Shown here: positions 50,391 through 58,937 of the stretch, piece by piece
Numbering within the stretch: position 1 is the first letter of the stretch
Layout of the letters: every line of letters starts with the position of its first letter
DNA from: Streptantibioticus ferralitis
Lineage (GTDB): Bacteria > Actinomycetota > Actinomycetes > Streptomycetales > Streptomycetaceae
Direction of reading: 5' to 3'
Length of the DNA: 64,000 nt
Assembly (NCBI RefSeq): GCF_029223525.1
Contig: NZ_JARHTQ010000003.1
Location: 124,001 to 188,000 of the forward strand
Translations under genes and position numbers: made by a program
The notes under the pieces: generated by a model
Database searches by the model: none
The model's input: the letters and a program-made list of their open reading frames with translations, nothing else
What the model was told of the DNA's origin: nothing

Positions 50391-51854
50391 ATGGGGTCAG
50401 CGAGAGTGGCCCGAGTCCTTCCGGGCCGGATCCGTCCGGGAGGCGGTGTGCGAGATCGCCTACGGCGCGTTCGGAACCGCCTCCGAGCCCGCACGCGCGG
50501 CATCGCAAGCCGTCGCACGCCCAATGCGCTCGGTGTGCCGGCGTTGCCGGATGCCTCAAATGCTCCTGTTGTACGGGGCTCGGCGGGTTTGACCGGCAGG
50601 CCCGCTGGATTGGGCCGTTCGGGGGCGCCGCCGGTCGCGCGGGGCGACGGGTGGGATCGGCGGCGGGTGGCGGCCATGGCGGTGGGGTTCGTGGCGCTGG
50701 TGGCCTGGAGCCTGGTCGCGGGACCCGCGGCCGCCGCACCGGTGCGGGGGCCGTGCGCGCTGGAACGCACCGATGTGCGGCACTCGGAAGGTGTGGACCG
50801 CTGGAACAGCGGCTACCCGCGGCCGTTGGGTGACGTCAACGCCGTCATGCTCTTCCTCGACTTCCCCGACCATGTGCCCGACGTCGACACTCGGGCGCTG
50901 ACCGCGGACCACTTCCCGGCCACCACCACGTTCCTCGCCCGCGCCTCCTACGGGCGCTTCCGGCTTCACCCGCATGTCCTACAGCGATGGTTCCGGATGC
51001 CGCGCCCCTCGACGGCGTACGGAATCCATCGCGACTGGGCCGACGGCCTGCGCACCCAGTACCTGCAGGACGCGATCGCCGCCGTCGGCAGGGACGTCGA
51101 CTTCCGGCGCTATCCGGTCATCTACCTGGTCGCCGACCCGGGGGCGCGCGGCGTGGACGCGGACGCCACCAAGGTGATCAACCTCGCTCGTCCCATCCAC
51201 TCCGGCCGCGCCACGATCGACCGGCTGGTGACCGTCTTCGAACACCACCCGCCGGACCAGAACGTCCTCGCTCATGAGACCAACCACGTCTTCGACCTGC
51301 CCGACCTCTACCTCCGCCCGCCCACCGGCAGCAACGACTCCTGGGACACCCGGGTGGGCGACTGGGACCTCATGGGCAGCCAGTTCGCCCTCGCCCCCGA
51401 CCTTTTCGCCTGGCACCGCTGGAAGTACGGCTGGATAGACCCCGGCCAGGTCATCTGCGTGGACCACCCCGGCACCACCACACGCACCCTGACGCCGGTC
51501 GAGGTGCCCGGCGGCACCAAGCTGATCGTGGTCCGGGTCAGTGTCACCACCGCCCTCGCGATCGAGGTGAGGGAGGCCCGGGGCAACGATGAACATGCCT
51601 GCGCCCAGGGCGTATTGCTGTACGAGGTACGCGCCGATGTCGAATCGGGCGAGGGGCCGATCACGGTCATGGACGGCCACCCGTGGACCGGAGCCTGCTA
51701 CGGCACCTCCGTCTACCCGCAGCTGGCCGATGCTCCCCTGGGCGCCGGTGAGTCGTACATGTACCACTTCGGGCGCCTGGCACAGGACGTGCTGCGTATC
51801 CGTGTCGACCGCCATGACCGCCGAGGCTGGACCGTGACGGCGGACGAGCGATGA
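50391..51854 (+). CDS. secreted M6-like metalloprotease, first of two
   Basis: The longest frame gives 487 residues, but the first 90 codons have poor third-position GC. A signal-like segment (VAAMAVGFVALVAWSLVAG) begins only at about residue 93, so the real start may be the GTG at 50667. The catalytic zinc site is H295-E-T-N-H299 followed by VFDLPDLY (numbering from 50391). The domain also has NAVMLFLDFPDH and ARASYGRFRLH, as in immune-inhibitor-A-type proteases. It is exported. The last four bases (ATGA) overlap the start of a paralogue. Confidence 0.82.
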   Translation: MGSARVARVLPGRIRPGGGVRDRLRRVRNRLRARTRGIASRRTPNALGVPALPDASNAPVVRGSAGLTGRPAGLGRSGAPPVARGDGWDRRRVAAMAVGFVALVAWSLVAGPAAAAPVRGPCALERTDVRHSEGVDRWNSGYPRPLGDVNAVMLFLDFPDHVPDVDTRALTADHFPATTTFLARASYGRFRLHPHVLQRWFRMPRPSTAYGIHRDWADGLRTQYLQDAIAAVGRDVDFRRYPVIYLVADPGARGVDADATKVINLARPIHSGRATIDRLVTVFEHHPPDQNVLAHETNHVFDLPDLYLRPPTGSNDSWDTRVGDWDLMGSQFALAPDLFAWHRWKYGWIDPGQVICVDHPGTTTRTLTPVEVPGGTKLIVVRVSVTTALAIEVREARGNDEHACAQGVLLYEVRADVESGEGPITVMDGHPWTGACYGTSVYPQLADAPLGAGESYMYHFGRLAQDVLRIRVDRHDRRGWTVTADER

Positions 51855-53119
51855 CCCCTTCGACGTGCCGCTCGAACCGGCGACGAAGCCGGGGAACCGT
51901 CGGCAAGGGCATACGGGGCGCCGCCATAGCCGGGGTCCTGCTGCTGGGCGGCGGCTCCACCGTGATCGGCAGCACCCCGGTGTCCAGCAGCACACCGCAC
52001 GCGGCTCCGCGCGCCCGGCCCTGCGCCCTGCGGGCCCATCGGGACACCGAGATGTCCGAGGGGTTCCCCACGGGTCGCGACCCCGCCTACGCGAAGTCCA
52101 CCGGTGAGCTGCGCGCCCTCACCCTGTTCATAGACTTCCCCGACGCGCCCGCCCGGGAGAGCGTACGCGCCCGTCATGCCGAGTTCTTCCCGTTCGTACC
52201 GCAGTGGTACGCCCGGGCCTCGTACGGCAGGCTGCGCTACCGCTCGTTCCCGGTGCTCCGGTACTTCCGGATGCCGCGCACGTTCGAGTCGTACGGCATA
52301 GCGCGTGGCTACGGGTGGTCGGTGCATCGCGCGATGATGCGGGACCTGGCCGCGGTCGTCGGGCGCAGCGTCGACTTCCGCGGCTACGACCTGGTCAATG
52401 TGATCGCCACGCCGAACGCGGGACCGCCCGCCAACGAGACCGTGCTCTCCGTCACCTGGACCGGCGGCACCGCCGCGCGCACCCATGACGGCGCCCAGCT
52501 CGACCGGGTCTCCGTGATCTACGGACACGACCAGGCCGGGCCCCGGGTGCTCGCCCATGAGAACGGCCACTCACTCGGGCTGCCCGACCTCTACGCGGTC
52601 GACGACTTCCACAGAACCGACCTCCTCGCCGGTCAGTGGGACACCATGTCGTTGGACTGGGGCCTGCAGGGCGATCTGTTCGCCTGGCACAAGTGGCGAC
52701 TCGGCTGGCTGGACGACGCACAGGTCGGCTGTGTGACAACGCGCGGGACGCAGGACTTCCAGCTGGCCCCGGTGGAGCTGCCCGGCGGCCGCAAGGCCGT
52801 GGTGATCCCGTACGGCCGCTACGTCGCGTATGTCGTGGAGGCGCGCACGGCGCAGGGCAACGACAGCGCGGCGTGCAGCGAGGGCGTGCTGGTCTACCGG
52901 GTACGCACCGATGTGGACTCGGGGGACGGTCCGATCAAGGTCATCGACGCCCATCCGGCCACCAGTGCCTGCGACTTCAGCAGCAGCGCGTTCAACTCCC
53001 TCAACGACGCGCCGTATCGGACGGGCGAGCGGTTCGCCGACCCGGCCAAGGGGATAGGGGTCGCTGTACTGGGGCGGGACGCCGAGGGTGGATGGACGAT
53101 ACGGGTCACTCGGCGCTAG
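51851..53119 (+). CDS. secreted M6-like metalloprotease, second of two
   Basis: 422 residues. An N-terminal signal region (RGAAIAGVLLLGGGSTVIG) is followed by a domain parallel to the upstream protein: ALTLFIDFPDAP, YARASYGRLRYRSF, and the zinc site H236-E-N-G-H240-SLGLPDLY, closer to the HExxHxxGxxD consensus. Both proteins share the C-terminal pattern with CAL...EGVLVYRVRTDVDSGDGPI. The ATGA overlap indicates coupled expression. Likely extracellular proteolysis; substrate unknown. Confidence 0.87.
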   Translation: MTPSTCRSNRRRSRGTVGKGIRGAAIAGVLLLGGGSTVIGSTPVSSSTPHAAPRARPCALRAHRDTEMSEGFPTGRDPAYAKSTGELRALTLFIDFPDAPARESVRARHAEFFPFVPQWYARASYGRLRYRSFPVLRYFRMPRTFESYGIARGYGWSVHRAMMRDLAAVVGRSVDFRGYDLVNVIATPNAGPPANETVLSVTWTGGTAARTHDGAQLDRVSVIYGHDQAGPRVLAHENGHSLGLPDLYAVDDFHRTDLLAGQWDTMSLDWGLQGDLFAWHKWRLGWLDDAQVGCVTTRGTQDFQLAPVELPGGRKAVVIPYGRYVAYVVEARTAQGNDSAACSEGVLVYRVRTDVDSGDGPIKVIDAHPATSACDFSSSAFNSLNDAPYRTGERFADPAKGIGVAVLGRDAEGGWTIRVTRR

Positions 53120-53552: not shown

Positions 53553-54146
53553 TCACTCCGGAATGCCCCCTTCCGGGCGGGTCGCAGCCCCCTCCGCGCC
53601 GGCCGCGCGCAGGCACGCCCAGAGCAGTACGGGGGCGCCGGGCAGCCAGGGATGGCGGGTACCGGGCGCCACCAGCCAGCGCGAGGGGCGCCCCTGGACC
53701 CGCCGCGCGCCGTCAGTGTGACATCCGCCACGTCGCCATCCGGGCGCCGGTACCAGCGGCGGCACCGTCACCGTCTCGCCGAGCCCGTGGCACAGCAGCG
53801 GCGGCACCCGCGCGCCCCACTCCTCCCAGGTCAGCAGCGAGGGCAGCCGCTCGGCGGTGCCGGGCCGGGCGAACACCAGGATCCGTCCGCGGTGCACCGC
53901 CACCGGTCCGCAGCCCGGACCGGCCGCCCATAACCGGTCCAGGACCCGGCGACCGAACAGTGATGGGAGGTTCACCACGTCGAACGTCGTGCCGCACGGC
54001 AGCGCGCTGGGCTCCGTGGGGCGCACCGACCACAGGGCCTGGACGCTGCGGGGGAAGGCGCTGGCCGAAGCGAGCCAGTCCGCGCCGTCGACCGTGACGT
54101 ACTCGGCACGCAGCATGGCGTCGGGCTCCCAGGTCCAATCCGTCAT
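53553..54146 (-). CDS. conserved actinobacterial protein, primase/polymerase-like annotation
   Basis: 197 residues beginning MTDWTWEPDAMLRAEYVTVDG, followed by PCGTTFDVVNLPSLFGRRVLDRLW, CGPVAVHRGRILVFARPGTAERLPSLL and a C-terminal WLVAPGTRHPWLPGAPVLLWA; quoted in pieces. Homologues are often labelled bifunctional DNA primase/polymerase because the fold resembles the N-terminal Prim-Pol domain (recollection). I see no clear DxD metal site, so activity is doubtful. It lies just upstream of the tRNA-Lys pair on the same strand. Confidence 0.6.
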   Translation of the reverse strand: MTDWTWEPDAMLRAEYVTVDGADWLASASAFPRSVQALWSVRPTEPSALPCGTTFDVVNLPSLFGRRVLDRLWAAGPGCGPVAVHRGRILVFARPGTAERLPSLLTWEEWGARVPPLLCHGLGETVTVPPLVPAPGWRRGGCHTDGARRVQGRPSRWLVAPGTRHPWLPGAPVLLWACLRAAGAEGAATRPEGGIPE

Positions 54147-54310: not shown

Positions 54311-54676
54311 TCACTCCGGCGGCGGCTGCTCGTTGAGCAGCTCCAGGCCGAACTCGACCATGCGCTTGGCGTAGTCCTCGCTCCACTCGGCGCGCTCCGC
54401 GATCGCGGCGATCGACACCCGGTCGAACCGTCCGGGGTCCGCCAGCTGCGCGGCCGCCATCGCCTGGAACTCCGTGGCACGGTCGGCAGCCGCCCGGAAG
54501 GCGATGGTCAGCTCGGTGGAGCGGTCGAGCAGCCGCCCCGGGTCCTCTATCGACTCCAGGTCGAAGAAGTGCTCGGGGTCGGAGGCCGCCGCCTCGGGTT
54601 CGAAGAGCAGTCGCGCGGGCCGCATCCGGTGCTGGGCTCCGTCCGGCGTCTGCTGAGCCGACTGCGGCTCGGACAT
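54311..54676 (-). CDS. conserved hypothetical helical protein
   Basis: 121 residues. The middle and C-terminus are helical (ELTIAFRAAADRATEFQAM, SIAAIAERAEWSEDYAKRMVEFGLELL), and the segment IAAIAERAEWSEDYAKRMV could be a small helix-turn-helix. ATG at 54676 has an AGGTACC just upstream. The function is unknown. A typical Streptomyces core-genome size and composition. Confidence 0.65.
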   Translation of the reverse strand: MSEPQSAQQTPDGAQHRMRPARLLFEPEAAASDPEHFFDLESIEDPGRLLDRSTELTIAFRAAADRATEFQAMAAAQLADPGRFDRVSIAAIAERAEWSEDYAKRMVEFGLELLNEQPPPE

Positions 54677-54787: not shown

Positions 54788-54842
54788 CCGGTGTTCCGAC
54801 AGCCGGGCCAGTACCGCGTGGTTCGCCTCCCAGCCGTCCGGG
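54788..54842. repeat. 55-bp direct repeat, outer copy
   Basis: Identical over 55 bp to 54932-54986, which encodes the C-terminal end of the SF1 helicase. This copy lies beyond the helicase stop and starts CCGGTGTTCCGACAGCCGGG. Confidence 0.9.
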
Positions 54843-54913: not shown

Positions 54914-56278
54914 TCACGGGTGCCATGCGATCCGGTGTTCCGACAGCCGGGCCAGTACCGCGTGGTTCGCCTCCCAGCCGTCCGGGAACTTCACCATCAC
55001 GCCCAGCTGCACCGGCTCCATCGACGGATGCTCGTCCAGCAGCCCGGTTACGCCCGCCCGGCACACCACCACGCACGCGTGCCGGTGCCGCGACGCCAGC
55101 ACGCACAGCCGCCCCGTCTCCAGATGGAACGCGGTCGCGTCCGGACGCCCGGACAGCGGATGCAGCACCACCGTGACGTCGAACTCCCGTCCCTGCAGCC
55201 GGTTCGCGGTGTCCACCGCGACGCCGGTCACCCCGAGCCTGGCCAGCGCGGCCCGTACCGCGGCGGCCTGGTCGCGGTGCGCGGTGCCCACCGCGATGCG
55301 GTCGGCGGTGAGCGGTACCGGGTCTTCGGCCCGCTCGCTCACCGTGACCCCGCCCCGGTCCAACAGCCGCCGCACCACCTGTGCCAGGGCGGCGACCGCC
55401 TCCGGGTCGGTCCGCGGAGTGTGCCGGGCGGGCAACTCCAGCAGCCCCCAGCCCGACGCGGCCGCCTCGTCAAGGACCCGATCGGGGCCGCTGCCGTCCG
55501 ATACCACACCGAAGGACAGACCGCGCTCCCCAGGAGCGGTACCGCTGCGGAACGGGGTGTACGGATAGAACGCGTCCGAGATCAGCGGCGCCGCCGAGGC
55601 GGGCAGTCGCCAGGAGACCGGCAGCCGGTGTTGCGGCAGCTGCGGATTGTGCGCCAGCAGCGTGACCACCGCACTCGCCGACGGGTCGTATGACAGCCCC
55701 GCCCACTGCTCCGCGCCCACCACGCTGAACGGATCCAACTGGCCCGGATCGCCGACGAACAACGCCCGCTCGAAGAGTCCGGCCACCCGCAGCAGCGCGT
55801 CGGAGCGCATCTGGTACGCCTCGTCGACGATCGCGTGCCGCCAGGGTTCAACGCCCTTGACATAGCCCCACTTCGCGGCGGTGGCGATCACCACCTGCCG
55901 TTCCCGCAGGTCCGCGACCTTGGTCGACTTCACCACCGACGTATGCCGCTCCAGCACGGGATCGGGCGGCGAGTCACTGCCGTGCAACCGGCCGATCGCC
56001 AGCTCCGGATCGGCCGTCGCCAGCCGATCCACAAGATCGTCCACCTGGGCGTTGGTCTGTGCGACGATCATCAACTGCTCGCCCGCCGAGGCCAGTTCCC
56101 GCGCGGCACGCACCACCAGGGTGGACTTTCCCGCGCCGGGCGGGGAGTCGACGACCACCCCGCGGTGCGGGCTGTCGCGGGTGTCGCGCAGGATCGCCTC
56201 GGTGGCGGCCGCGGCTGCCCGCGCCGGGTCGCTCGCGGCTTCCCGGCCCGTGCCGGAGGCCAGGGGCGCTTCGCTCAC
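54914..56278 (-). CDS. superfamily 1 helicase (UPF1/Dna2-like)
   Basis: 454 residues. Walker A is DSPPGAGKST at about 44-53, Walker B is IVDEAYQM with D152/E153, then FVGDPGQLDPFSVVG (motif III), and the C-terminal RecA half has GTAHRDQAAAVRAAL, NRLQGREFDVTVV and LASRHRHACVVV. This order is that of SF1B enzymes such as Dna2/UPF1. It overlaps the upstream unknown gene by GTGA, so the GTG start at 56278 is well placed; the longer frame is rejected. It is the last gene of a three-gene operon with a Cas4-like nuclease. Confidence 0.88.
   Translation of the reverse strand: MSEAPLASGTGREAASDPARAAAAATEAILRDTRDSPHRGVVVDSPPGAGKSTLVVRAARELASAGEQLMIVAQTNAQVDDLVDRLATADPELAIGRLHGSDSPPDPVLERHTSVVKSTKVADLRERQVVIATAAKWGYVKGVEPWRHAIVDEAYQMRSDALLRVAGLFERALFVGDPGQLDPFSVVGAEQWAGLSYDPSASAVVTLLAHNPQLPQHRLPVSWRLPASAAPLISDAFYPYTPFRSGTAPGERGLSFGVVSDGSGPDRVLDEAAASGWGLLELPARHTPRTDPEAVAALAQVVRRLLDRGGVTVSERAEDPVPLTADRIAVGTAHRDQAAAVRAALARLGVTGVAVDTANRLQGREFDVTVVLHPLSGRPDATAFHLETGRLCVLASRHRHACVVVCRAGVTGLLDEHPSMEPVQLGVMVKFPDGWEANHAVLARLSEHRIAWHP
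54932..54986. repeat. 55-bp direct repeat, copy inside the helicase gene
   Basis: Encodes most of the last 18 residues before the stop (PDGWEANHAVLARLSEHRI on the minus strand). The second copy is 144 bp away. Confidence 0.9.
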
Positions 56279-57831
56279 AGGTAGTCCTCGCTCGTTACGG
56301 GGTCCGGGGCGTCGGCGGACAGCGCGGTGGTCGGCGGACCGCCATGGGTCCACGGGGTGGCTTCGGCGTCCGGCAACTCCGGGCCGCTGCGCGACGTGTG
56401 CTCGAACAGCGTCCAGCACACCCGGTCGCCCGGCGCCGGAACCGAGCCTTCGTCCGGCGCCTTGCCGCGGCCCATCCCGTTCAGCAGCTGTACGACCAGC
56501 ACGCCGGGCGCCGCCCATGCCATGAACCGCGCCTCCTGCGTCCGGCCGTCCGGGAGCGCCCGGTACACCGTGCCGCCCTCGTCCAGATGCGGCAGGTCGC
56601 CGGTGGCCACCGTCAGCAGCGGGCGCGGCCTGGGCACCTTGGCGTCGGAGTACGCCATCTCCACCGCGCTGACCTCGCCCGCGAACGCCTCACCGGCCAA
56701 CCGCCGCCCGGCCATCACCAGCGGATCGTCCAACGCCTCCTGCGCCTCAAGCCGCACCTGGGCGGTCTCGCGGCCCGCGAGCTTCTGCGCGGCGGCGATC
56801 GCGTCGTCCAGCTTGGGCTGCGGCGGCTCACCCGCCCGCAACCGGTCGCGGTGGCCGGTGTACGACCAGCGGTCCCGCTTCCAGCGGTCCTCGACATGCC
56901 CGCCCGGCGGCAGGGCGCGCAGCAGATCGATACCGCGCCACACGTCGTCCCACGTCGGCCGCAACTGGCTCTCCAGCAGCGCGCGGATCTCCCGTTCTGC
57001 CGGGACGGTGTCCGCTCCGGCAGAACGTGCAGTGTCGTAGCGGGTCATGGCCGGGGCGAGCGCGGTGTTGTCGAAGACCGGATCGGTGGCGGGACCGGCG
57101 GGCGGGCAGCGCAGCAGCCCGTCCGGGTCCCTGCCGACCTGGGCGTGCAGCGCCGCCGCCGCGCCGTCCATGCCCTGCGGCGGGTCCAACCACGCCAGCA
57201 GACCGCCCAGGTGCTGGTCCTCAAGACCGCTCTGACCGGTGGCCCAGTGCCTGGCCAGCACCTCCGTCATGGCGAGCAGCAGCGCGCTGCCGGGGGTGCG
57301 GGCCCGCTCGCCGTAATGCGTCAACCAGCGGCCCAGCAACGGGACCCGCGACGGCGCGGGATGCGGCTCGGCGGGATCCTCCTCGGCCGTGCGCCGGAAC
57401 CGGGTGGCCCGGCCCAGCAGCCGTACGTACTCCACCCCCGCTGTGTTCGGGACGATCAACTGCGGTGCGTCAACGCACAGTTCCCGCTCGACGGCGACCT
57501 TCTTGCCGGTCTCCGGGTCTGTCTCCTTGCCCGCTTCCAGGGCGATCCGGTCCTCGTAGGACATGAGATACGGCAGGACCTCGTCCGCGAGCTCCGCCAG
57601 GAAGGCGGACCGCAGATCGCGGTCGCGTGGCTGCGGTACGGCCAGCAGGCGCGGCGCGTCCCGTGCGGTGCCGACGAGCGCGCCCAGCGGAGCGCCCACC
57701 TCGCCCGCTGTCGTCAGCGGTACGAAGACCAGCGGCTGGTCGGAGAGCCAGCGGTGCCGCACGGTCGCCAGCGGCTGCGCCCGCCCGGCCGCCACGGCCT
57801 GGGCCTTGGCCAGCGTCTCCATCAACGGCAT
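56275..57831 (-). CDS. large unknown protein between nuclease and helicase
   Basis: 518 residues, ATG with GGAGG four bases upstream, overlapping the nuclease stop by 10 bases and the helicase start by four. I recognise no domain. Visible features: an N-terminal beta-rich region (RWLSDQPLVFVPLTTAGEVG), many Arg/Trp residues in the centre (PTWDDVWRGIDLL, RWKRDRWSYTGHRDRL), and a beta-strand segment TVYRALPDGRTQEARFMAWAAPGVLVVQLL. No signal peptide or membrane helix. Tight coupling implies that it works with the other two proteins, perhaps as a DNA-binding or scaffold subunit. Confidence 0.85.
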   Translation of the reverse strand: MPLMETLAKAQAVAAGRAQPLATVRHRWLSDQPLVFVPLTTAGEVGAPLGALVGTARDAPRLLAVPQPRDRDLRSAFLAELADEVLPYLMSYEDRIALEAGKETDPETGKKVAVERELCVDAPQLIVPNTAGVEYVRLLGRATRFRRTAEEDPAEPHPAPSRVPLLGRWLTHYGERARTPGSALLLAMTEVLARHWATGQSGLEDQHLGGLLAWLDPPQGMDGAAAALHAQVGRDPDGLLRCPPAGPATDPVFDNTALAPAMTRYDTARSAGADTVPAEREIRALLESQLRPTWDDVWRGIDLLRALPPGGHVEDRWKRDRWSYTGHRDRLRAGEPPQPKLDDAIAAAQKLAGRETAQVRLEAQEALDDPLVMAGRRLAGEAFAGEVSAVEMAYSDAKVPRPRPLLTVATGDLPHLDEGGTVYRALPDGRTQEARFMAWAAPGVLVVQLLNGMGRGKAPDEGSVPAPGDRVCWTLFEHTSRSGPELPDAEATPWTHGGPPTTALSADAPDPVTSEDYL

Positions 57832-58937
57832 CCGGCCTCCTGGAGTGCTTCGGCGCGCAGGGCCGCGGCGCGGCGCAGTGCGGCCGCGGCCGGGTCGCCA
57901 CCGGGGGCCGGTCCGGGTGTTGGCCCGAGCGCGGCGGACAGGATCTGCTCAACCGTGGTCAGCGTGCCGAGTTCACCGCGCAGCGAACGGCCGAGCGACT
58001 CCACGGCGCCGTCGGCGCGGGACCGCTCCCGGCAGTGGTAGGCGAGTTCACAGGTGTCCAGGCACTCCGGCGCGTACGCGGCGGGCACGGCGTCCACGGC
58101 GGCGGCCATCTGCGAGGCGGGCCGTTCGCAGGTCACGTCGAACGTCGTACCGTCCGGCAGCGCGTCCGCGATCTCCTCGATCCGGGTGAGCCGGGCCAAC
58201 TGGCGTCGGGTGACGGACAGTTGCTTGCGTACGTCGACCGGTCGGGCGGTCGGTACGTTGGAGAAGTCCCTGGGGCAGACCAGCAGTACCTCGTGCCGGG
58301 GCGGTGCCACGGCCAGCCGCTCCAGCGCGTACACGTAGACCGCCGCCTGCCGGGCCGCCGCCCCCACCTTCACCGCGTCGGCGCTGCCGTCCAGGATCGG
58401 GAACGACTTGACCTCGATCACCGTCGCCGAACCGTCCGGCCGCACCGCGACCGCGTCCGGCTCCAGATAGGCGGGCGCGCCCGCCACGTCGAGCACCAGC
58501 AGCGGATGGTCGAGCAGCGTCCACTGTTCGGCTGCCGCCGCCTCCTTGAGCGCCAGCCGGGTACGGGCGGCACGGGCCTGCGGCCCGGCCGCGGACAGGT
58601 CCGGCAACGTGGTGTCGGCGGTGTCGGCGGCGCCTAGCAGCTGTAGCAACTCCGCACAGTTGTCGGCCTTGACGCGGGCCTCGAACGCGTTGCCGCGGAC
58701 GAAGGCGAACCGTGACTGTCCGAACCGCGCGGGCGCCCCCAACACCTGCGCTACCGCGCCCTTGTCGACTCCGGCCGCGTCCAGCAGCGCGCGGCGCTCG
58801 CAGCCCGGGTTGGCGGCGAGCGCGGCGAGGCCCCTCGCGTCCAGCGCTCGGGGCTGGACGCTGGGGCCGCGCAGCTCTGCGAGACGGCGCCGCAAGGACG
58901 CGGCGCCTTGCGCCGCGTCGGTGGTGAAGTCGTTCAC
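57822..58937 (-). CDS. Cas4/Dna2-like PD-(D/E)XK nuclease with predicted 4Fe-4S site
   Basis: 371 residues from the GTG at 58937. The nuclease core has E86 in GNAFEARVKA, D161 in YLEPDAVAV and E175-V-K177 in VIEVKSFP, the order of RecB-family PD-(D/E)XK sites. Four cysteines have the layout of Fe-S nucleases: C46 before the core, and C292, C296 and C302 after it (APECLDTCELAYHC). That is the Cas4/AddB/Dna2 arrangement. First gene of the operon. The frame upstream of 58937 runs into the mosaic repeat and is not coding. Confidence 0.85.
   Translation of the reverse strand: MNDFTTDAAQGAASLRRRLAELRGPSVQPRALDARGLAALAANPGCERRALLDAAGVDKGAVAQVLGAPARFGQSRFAFVRGNAFEARVKADNCAELLQLLGAADTADTTLPDLSAAGPQARAARTRLALKEAAAAEQWTLLDHPLLVLDVAGAPAYLEPDAVAVRPDGSATVIEVKSFPILDGSADAVKVGAAARQAAVYVYALERLAVAPPRHEVLLVCPRDFSNVPTARPVDVRKQLSVTRRQLARLTRIEEIADALPDGTTFDVTCERPASQMAAAVDAVPAAYAPECLDTCELAYHCRERSRADGAVESLGRSLRGELGTLTTVEQILSAALGPTPGPAPGGDPAAAALRRAAALRAEALQEAGCR

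Follow-up and report, generated by a model that had tools for sequence, protein, structure and literature searches.

A putative Dna2-like helicase-nuclease on three chains in Streptomyces and its relatives, with accessory copies beside defence systems

RecB-type nucleases with an Fe-S cluster act on DNA in the families that have been characterised, and Dna2 joins such a nuclease to a helicase motor within one chain. In Dna2, as in the helicases IGHMBP2 and UPF1, a stalk and a 1B barrel precede the motor in that same chain. Wadjet, a system that will concern us below, cleaves small circles but leaves linear DNA uncut, and DNA ends are recognised by Rad50/SbcCD complexes (review PMC10586767). 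A further system, pPIWI-RE, was described in 2013 with a three-gene core (PMC3702460).

Here we analyse a three-gene operon, nuc-mid-hel, within a stretch of 64,000 nucleotides from Streptantibioticus ferralitis (contig NZ_JARHTQ010000003.1, positions 124,001 to 188,000; hereafter the window, to which plain coordinates refer). We propose that the three products probably constitute one Dna2-like helicase-nuclease distributed over three chains, whose core copies would serve in break or end processing and whose accessory copies have been recruited beside defence systems. Searches of open-licence papers with the family names, or for Wadjet together with SbcC/Mre11, returned no description of the cassette.

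The operon and its predicted subunits

The operon lies on the minus strand at 54914-58937, in agreement with the coordinates of the initial annotation. It begins with nuc (57822-58937; 371 aa, GTG start), a RecB/Cas4-type PD-(D/E)XK nuclease with a predicted Fe-S cluster, continues with mid (56275-57831; 518 aa, ATG start), a subunit without sequence-recognisable domains, and closes with hel (54914-56278; 454 aa, GTG start), an SF1B helicase core of two RecA domains that lacks an N-terminal 1B. Neighbouring genes overlap, nuc and mid by 10 nt and mid and hel by 4 nt (GTGA), with the GTG of hel placed on the TGA of mid. Codon-position G+C of the three ORFs (~0.77/0.54/0.89) fits minus-strand coding of the typical high-GC actinobacterial kind, and chance ORFs are excluded for nuc, mid and hel because related loci carry homologues at 60-82% identity. 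A 534-aa ORF ending at 56518 was rejected as merely an upstream extension. The operon is flanked by a PAP2-family gene on one side and a small gene on the other, no cas genes were recognised among its annotated immediate neighbours, and the nearest named relatives of the window among those retrieved are Streptomyces sp. RPT161 and Streptantibioticus.

Several features of the surroundings are recorded here in their own right. A segment of about 55 bases close to the 3′ end of hel (~54932-54987; cccggacggctgggaggcgaac...ggaacaccgg) has a second copy at 54788-54842, ~145 bases farther downstream and past the hel stop codon, which resembles the remnant of a partial duplication. On the minus strand 3′ of hel, at 53553-54146 and 54311-54676, are a small gene that is conserved and encodes 121 aa and another whose product weakly matches the Prim-Pol/SCO3374 family; most of the other core Streptomyces loci that were examined carry homologues of the two downstream of hel. 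Farther along, at 50391-53119, two neighbouring and similar secreted-protein-like ORFs of 487 and 422 aa share an HExxH-like region (AHETNHVFDLPDLY / AHENGHSLGLPDLY) and are perhaps metalloproteases.

The nuclease is poorly covered by existing models: Pfam gives a weak PDDEXK_1 match only (E 0.008), NCBIfam none at E<=0.1 (TIGR03491 included), and the Cas4 models of PADLOC do not match it. Matches of its profile to PDB sequences were mainly designed repeat proteins aligned on one short stretch, and were discarded as spurious. Its residues speak more clearly, and both the RecB-type positions and the four cysteines picked out initially are conserved in homologues. Cys46 (58800-58802, minus strand) and Cys292, Cys296 and Cys302 (58032-58064, minus strand), the predicted Fe-S ligands, are invariant in 41 of 41 homologues. 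The conserved nuclease core runs from E159-P-D161 to E175-V-K177 (58407-58463, minus strand); E159-P-D161, Q197 and Y201 vary little or not at all across the 41 homologues, and E86, E175 and K177 are kept in at least 90% of 18 aligned sequences.

The motor is readily placed. Pfam matches of hel to AAA_11, AAA_12 and AAA_30 assign it to SF1B and its closest PDB sequences are Dna2 and IGHMBP2, which bears out the Dna2/UPF1 type originally assigned. The likeness to AddAB suggested alongside it does not extend to the motor, which is Upf1/Dna2-like and not UvrD-like. A match to PLuB_AAA was not taken as an identity, as that model hits 137 of 149 genomes of the phylum and represents a generic Upf1-type signal. 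The helicase motifs are conserved, and homologues of hel start shortly before those of the motor. Walker A (residues 45-52, SPPGAGKS, with G48, G50 and K51 conserved; 56123-56146, minus strand) begins at residue 45, and hel is therefore too short at its N-terminus to accommodate the stalk and 1B barrel that Upf1/Dna2-type helicases have there.

At the level of sequence mid is as featureless as first described: none of Pfam, NCBIfam, PADLOC, PHROGs and the PDB sequences offers a credible match. A Caa3_CtaG match (E 0.0026) fell below the cut-off and finds no support in the AlphaFold model or elsewhere. That model (m5889b83d2936; mean pLDDT 77.9), built from a shallow alignment of 62 sequences, namely the window protein and 61 close relatives that are nearly all Streptomyces, is alpha/beta at the N-terminus and helical in the middle, with long helices and, at residues 380-475, a beta-barrel. 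When Foldseek candidates were re-aligned with VIA-align, residues 340-477 (56401-56814, minus strand), a stalk helix and beta-barrel resembling domain 1B of Upf1/Dna2-type helicases, ranked IGHMBP2 residues 4-140 first (Z 9.8, rmsd 5.0 Å, 116 aligned) and SETX second (Z 8.3), with Sen1 (7.8) and Dna2 (7.6) at lower ranks. The top two rows are SF1B helicases, and their alignment runs from the stalk through the barrel. Unrelated barrels also score well (FNR-type Z 7.9, F1-ATPase Z 7.5), and since the FNR-type barrels reach such a value we regard the 1B fold match as suggestive and not decisive.

The N-terminal domain of mid (residues ~31-199; 57235-57741, minus strand) tentatively resembles an RNase H/DEDD-exonuclease fold. 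Folded separately (pLDDT 75), its scores are weak, with RNase H1 as the top Foldseek match (E 0.05) and, in VIA-align, oligoribonuclease (Z 5.0) and DnaQ (4.4) in the first two places; the leading structural matches are all of RNase H-like fold. In the mid alignment the D-x-E of motif I is lacking. We tentatively interpret this modelled region as a degenerate RNase H/DEDD-like domain, which may belong to an RNase H-like family other than the DEDD exonucleases, while the modelled C-terminus appears to be the helicase stalk and 1B barrel that hel is missing. As mid appears to carry both this missing helicase piece and the degenerate domain, it is better understood as a structural subunit than as an outside partner. 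The initial annotation had envisaged a machine of Dna2 kind divided among subunits and joined by a further protein; we retain the division and not the outside partner, nor does structure prediction turn the middle protein into a metabolic enzyme.

Distribution of the core operon and of the fused TM0106-type enzyme

Genes in the fetched loci were called with a simple GC-frame caller. Across 40 diverse loci nuc was next to mid in all, and the order nuc-mid-hel was kept in 38, so the three genes are not found apart in most genomes. An extra gene separates mid from hel at locus L058, and in the two exceptions to the common order (genomes G204 and G467) hel is still encoded in the genome, tens of kb off. 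Within the family of the window (f1, which includes sampled Streptomyces) mid was present in 39 of 40 genomes, compared with 72 of 395 in the class (two marginal) and 11 of 296 in the phylum; the only sampled Streptomyces without mid, G505, is also without hel. The operon is a core chromosomal factor in Streptomyces, nearly universal in the sampled genomes, and a viral origin is not supported, a search of IMG/VR for related loci having given none.

A fused enzyme offers a parallel. TIGR03491, the TM0106-type nuclease, occurs in 137 of 395 class genomes, often within ORFs of ~1140-1250 aa that also contain a helicase, and the two fused ORFs inspected comprise Fe-S nuclease, RNase H-like, barrel and Upf1-type helicase parts. 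Among the 395 genomes mid and TIGR03491 occur together in three (G050, G520, G579) against 24 expected (Fisher p 5e-11), and the deficit persists when the family of the window is omitted (12 expected, p 2e-4). In family f84, probably Streptosporangiaceae, no genus carries both; in family f85 the sole overlap is G579; in two of the three genomes with both, the mid copy is accessory; and TIGR03491 was not found in genome G000. This near-exclusive distribution suggests that nuc-mid-hel and the TM0106 fusion share a role, a functional hint and not proof, because the pattern is clustered by clade and represents few independent events. Literal descent from a split fusion is unsupported by profile-profile alignment, in which mid did not match significantly the RNase H and 1B/barrel parts of the fusions (hhalign P 0.26 and 0.05), and we keep the fusion as a functional parallel alone. 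The layouts run side by side, with an Fe-S nuclease and an SF1B motor in each and, if the tentative fold assignments of mid hold, an RNase H-like part and a barrel as well; they differ in that the window operon uses three chains, that nuc has no TIGR03491 match and that mid cannot be aligned to the fusion.

Accessory copies and their neighbours

In f84 loci and in second copies within Streptomyces a fourth gene of 265-290 aa precedes nuc. Its product belongs to no Pfam family and is wHTH-like by appearance alone; the gene was present in 23 of 296 Streptomyces and was not found in G000. We surveyed 30 loci with the fourth gene, fetching both flanks. In 19 of them SbcD and SbcC are divergent from the cassette (G723 showed SbcD only), and 13 of these 19 have Wadjet genes, 12 recognised by tblastn (types I, II and III) and one, G700, through a match to JetC1. 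PADLOC models confirmed all four genes, JetA to JetD, at representative accessory loci. In another 10 of the 30 the cassette is divergent to PprPDDEXK, the first gene of a pPIWI-RE cluster, and the full set of PprPDDEXK, PprRE, PprDinG and PprPIWI was confirmed at G889 (shown at L269). HmaA-like matches lie near four of these ten cassettes, HmaB and HmaC being confirmed at G942. Thus 29 of the 30 accessory copies stand beside SbcCD or pPIWI-RE, and one, in G946, beside neither. By comparison, tblastn seeds for the SbcCD, Jet and pPIWI-RE genes had no match in 1.42 Mb of core loci (106 sequences), where the flanks were partly narrower, most loci having ~6 kb and ten having 17 kb. In the window, with nuc, mid and hel themselves set aside, the SbcCD, Jet and PprPDDEXK seeds had no match either. 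The initial suggestion of DNA repair or anti-phage function accordingly divides by copy, core copies lying outside defence islands and accessory copies inside.

Residues of the nuclease are changed in all ten pPIWI-RE-linked nuc copies, by E86H/E175L/K177R in seven and by loss of E159 and D161 with K177R and Y201S in three, while every one of the four cysteines is kept, as are the helicase motifs; the nuclease residues are intact in the other 20 of 20 accessory copies and in 33 of 34 core or other rows. In the mid tree the ten group as one clade, which indicates a single lineage with two end states. Core copies form their own clade, and defence-linked copies are spread over several. The sister copies of G723 (Wadjet II) and G793 (Wadjet I) have nearly identical mid proteins, from which we conclude that the Wadjet partner was exchanged. 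As mobile copies repeatedly adjoin plasmid- or phage-defence systems, the cassette is probably a reusable DNA-end-processing module.

Further observations were made at individual loci. L059, L060 and eight more type B loci are pPIWI-RE clusters with a divergent four-gene cassette and a degenerate nuclease; the cassette genes lie outside the three-gene pPIWI-RE core as published. In G750 (L258/L278) and G824 (L261/L281) an SbcCD-linked cassette lies ~20-25 kb from both ends of a single contig, positions as expected for the terminal inverted repeats of a linear chromosome. Proteins judged NYN/PIN-like by eye (motifs DVENLVG, FVDFENIHMG) recur near nuc-mid-hel in two different families (L038:4065-4544, L041:3823-4302, L062:10051-11712, L064:10517-12181). 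Finally, an SF2 helicase with helicase-associated (HA) domains lies directly 3′ of hel in three SbcCD-linked loci (L063:2794-5043, L068:8910-11150, L067:2672-5584).

A model for nuc-mid-hel in the context of related systems

In the model that we favour, hel would supply the two RecA motor domains of an ATP-driven DNA helicase-nuclease and mid the stalk and 1B barrel, with its inactive RNase H-like domain gripping DNA or bridging to the nuclease. The Fe-S-stabilised nuc would cut the strand fed to it, so that the complex may resect or degrade DNA from ends. Gene structure, conservation, linkage and residue losses are observed; the split 1B is based on predicted structure, and we infer complex formation, activity, polarity, substrates and roles. 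In Streptomyces the core complex would act in break or end processing; because the window copy is a core copy with no defence context, housekeeping end processing or repair is likelier for it than phage defence. Beside SbcCD (Mre11-Rad50), and often Wadjet, the cassette could destroy the linear DNA remaining after Wadjet has cut a plasmid: since Wadjet spares linear DNA and Rad50/SbcCD recognise ends, SbcCD and a Dna2-like enzyme together could remove the linear product. Beside pPIWI-RE, where nuc is degenerate, another PD-(D/E)XK enzyme may cut instead. A broader formulation, which we offer tentatively, is that of a portable split-1B end-processing module for at least two unrelated defence machines, degrading linear DNA with SbcCD/Wadjet and acting as a helicase for a partner nuclease with pPIWI-RE, while the core copy replaces the TM0106 fusion.

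The accessory copies could be read the other way, with the operon primarily anti-phage or anti-plasmid everywhere and the Streptomyces core copy a domesticated defence system. The near-complete association of accessory copies with SbcCD(/Wadjet) or pPIWI-RE, and the scatter of defence-linked copies in the mid tree, favour this reading, which we nevertheless consider unlikely: nearly all sampled Streptomyces have the core copy whereas mobile defence systems are usually patchy, none of the SbcCD, Jet or pPIWI-RE genes was found near it in the sequences searched, and it forms its own clade without the fourth gene. A different doubt attaches to mid, which might be an unrelated DNA-binding or scaffold protein with a barrel 1B-like by convergence, leaving hel and nuc as a two-protein helicase-nuclease. 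The FNR-type and F1-ATPase barrels do score nearly as high and the hhalign comparison to 1B is not significant, yet the two best VIA-align rows are SF1B helicases matched from stalk through barrel, hel homologues begin near the motor motifs, and mid lies directly before hel, overlaps it and is retained throughout; we hold convergence to be improbable.

The resemblance of the mid stalk and 1B to IGHMBP2 and SETX, together with an RNase H-like N-terminus, could also denote an RNA- or R-loop-processing machine, with a motor like that of UPF1, IGHMBP2 or SETX acting on RNA or hybrids, and RNA-DNA hybrids have been proposed as the target of pPIWI-RE (PMC3702460). This is the most doubtful of the readings in our judgement, as the hel sequence matches Dna2 as well as IGHMBP2, and characterised RecB-type Fe-S nucleases, SbcCD and Wadjet all work on DNA.

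If the three-chain Dna2-like enzyme is real, Streptomyces and relatives possess a resection or degradation enzyme that annotation has overlooked because every part looks anonymous by itself, and a 1B domain on a separate subunit would be an unusual solution among SF1B motors. Furthermore, the repeated pairing of the cassette with SbcCD plus Wadjet suggests a testable answer to the open question of what becomes of a plasmid once Wadjet has linearised it, and the nuclease-dead copies beside pPIWI-RE predict a role of its own for the helicase half.

Compared with known systems, Wadjet (JetABCD) and SbcCD are neighbours of accessory copies and not of the window copy, and have no subunits in common with it. 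The part of the pPIWI-RE description considered here names no nuc, mid or hel partner (PMC3702460), and ten accessory copies adjoin pPIWI-RE. With Cas4 the operon shares a RecB-type nuclease layout with 1+3 cysteines, but nuc is paired with mid at every examined locus and has no PADLOC Cas4 match. Like AddAB/RecBCD it combines a helicase with a RecB-type nuclease whose predicted Fe-S cysteines follow the arrangement of AddB, whereas its motor is Upf1/Dna2-like and not UvrD-type SF1A, and its three subunits are small. In domain order it resembles Dna2, with a RecB-type nuclease that has Fe-S cysteines, an SF1B motor and between them, by predicted fold and in trans on mid, a putative 1B barrel, which would give the order nuclease-1B-motor; unlike Dna2, the enzyme proposed here is bacterial, is encoded as three chains and not one in all examined loci, and has in mid an additional N-terminal domain that is tentatively RNase H-like.
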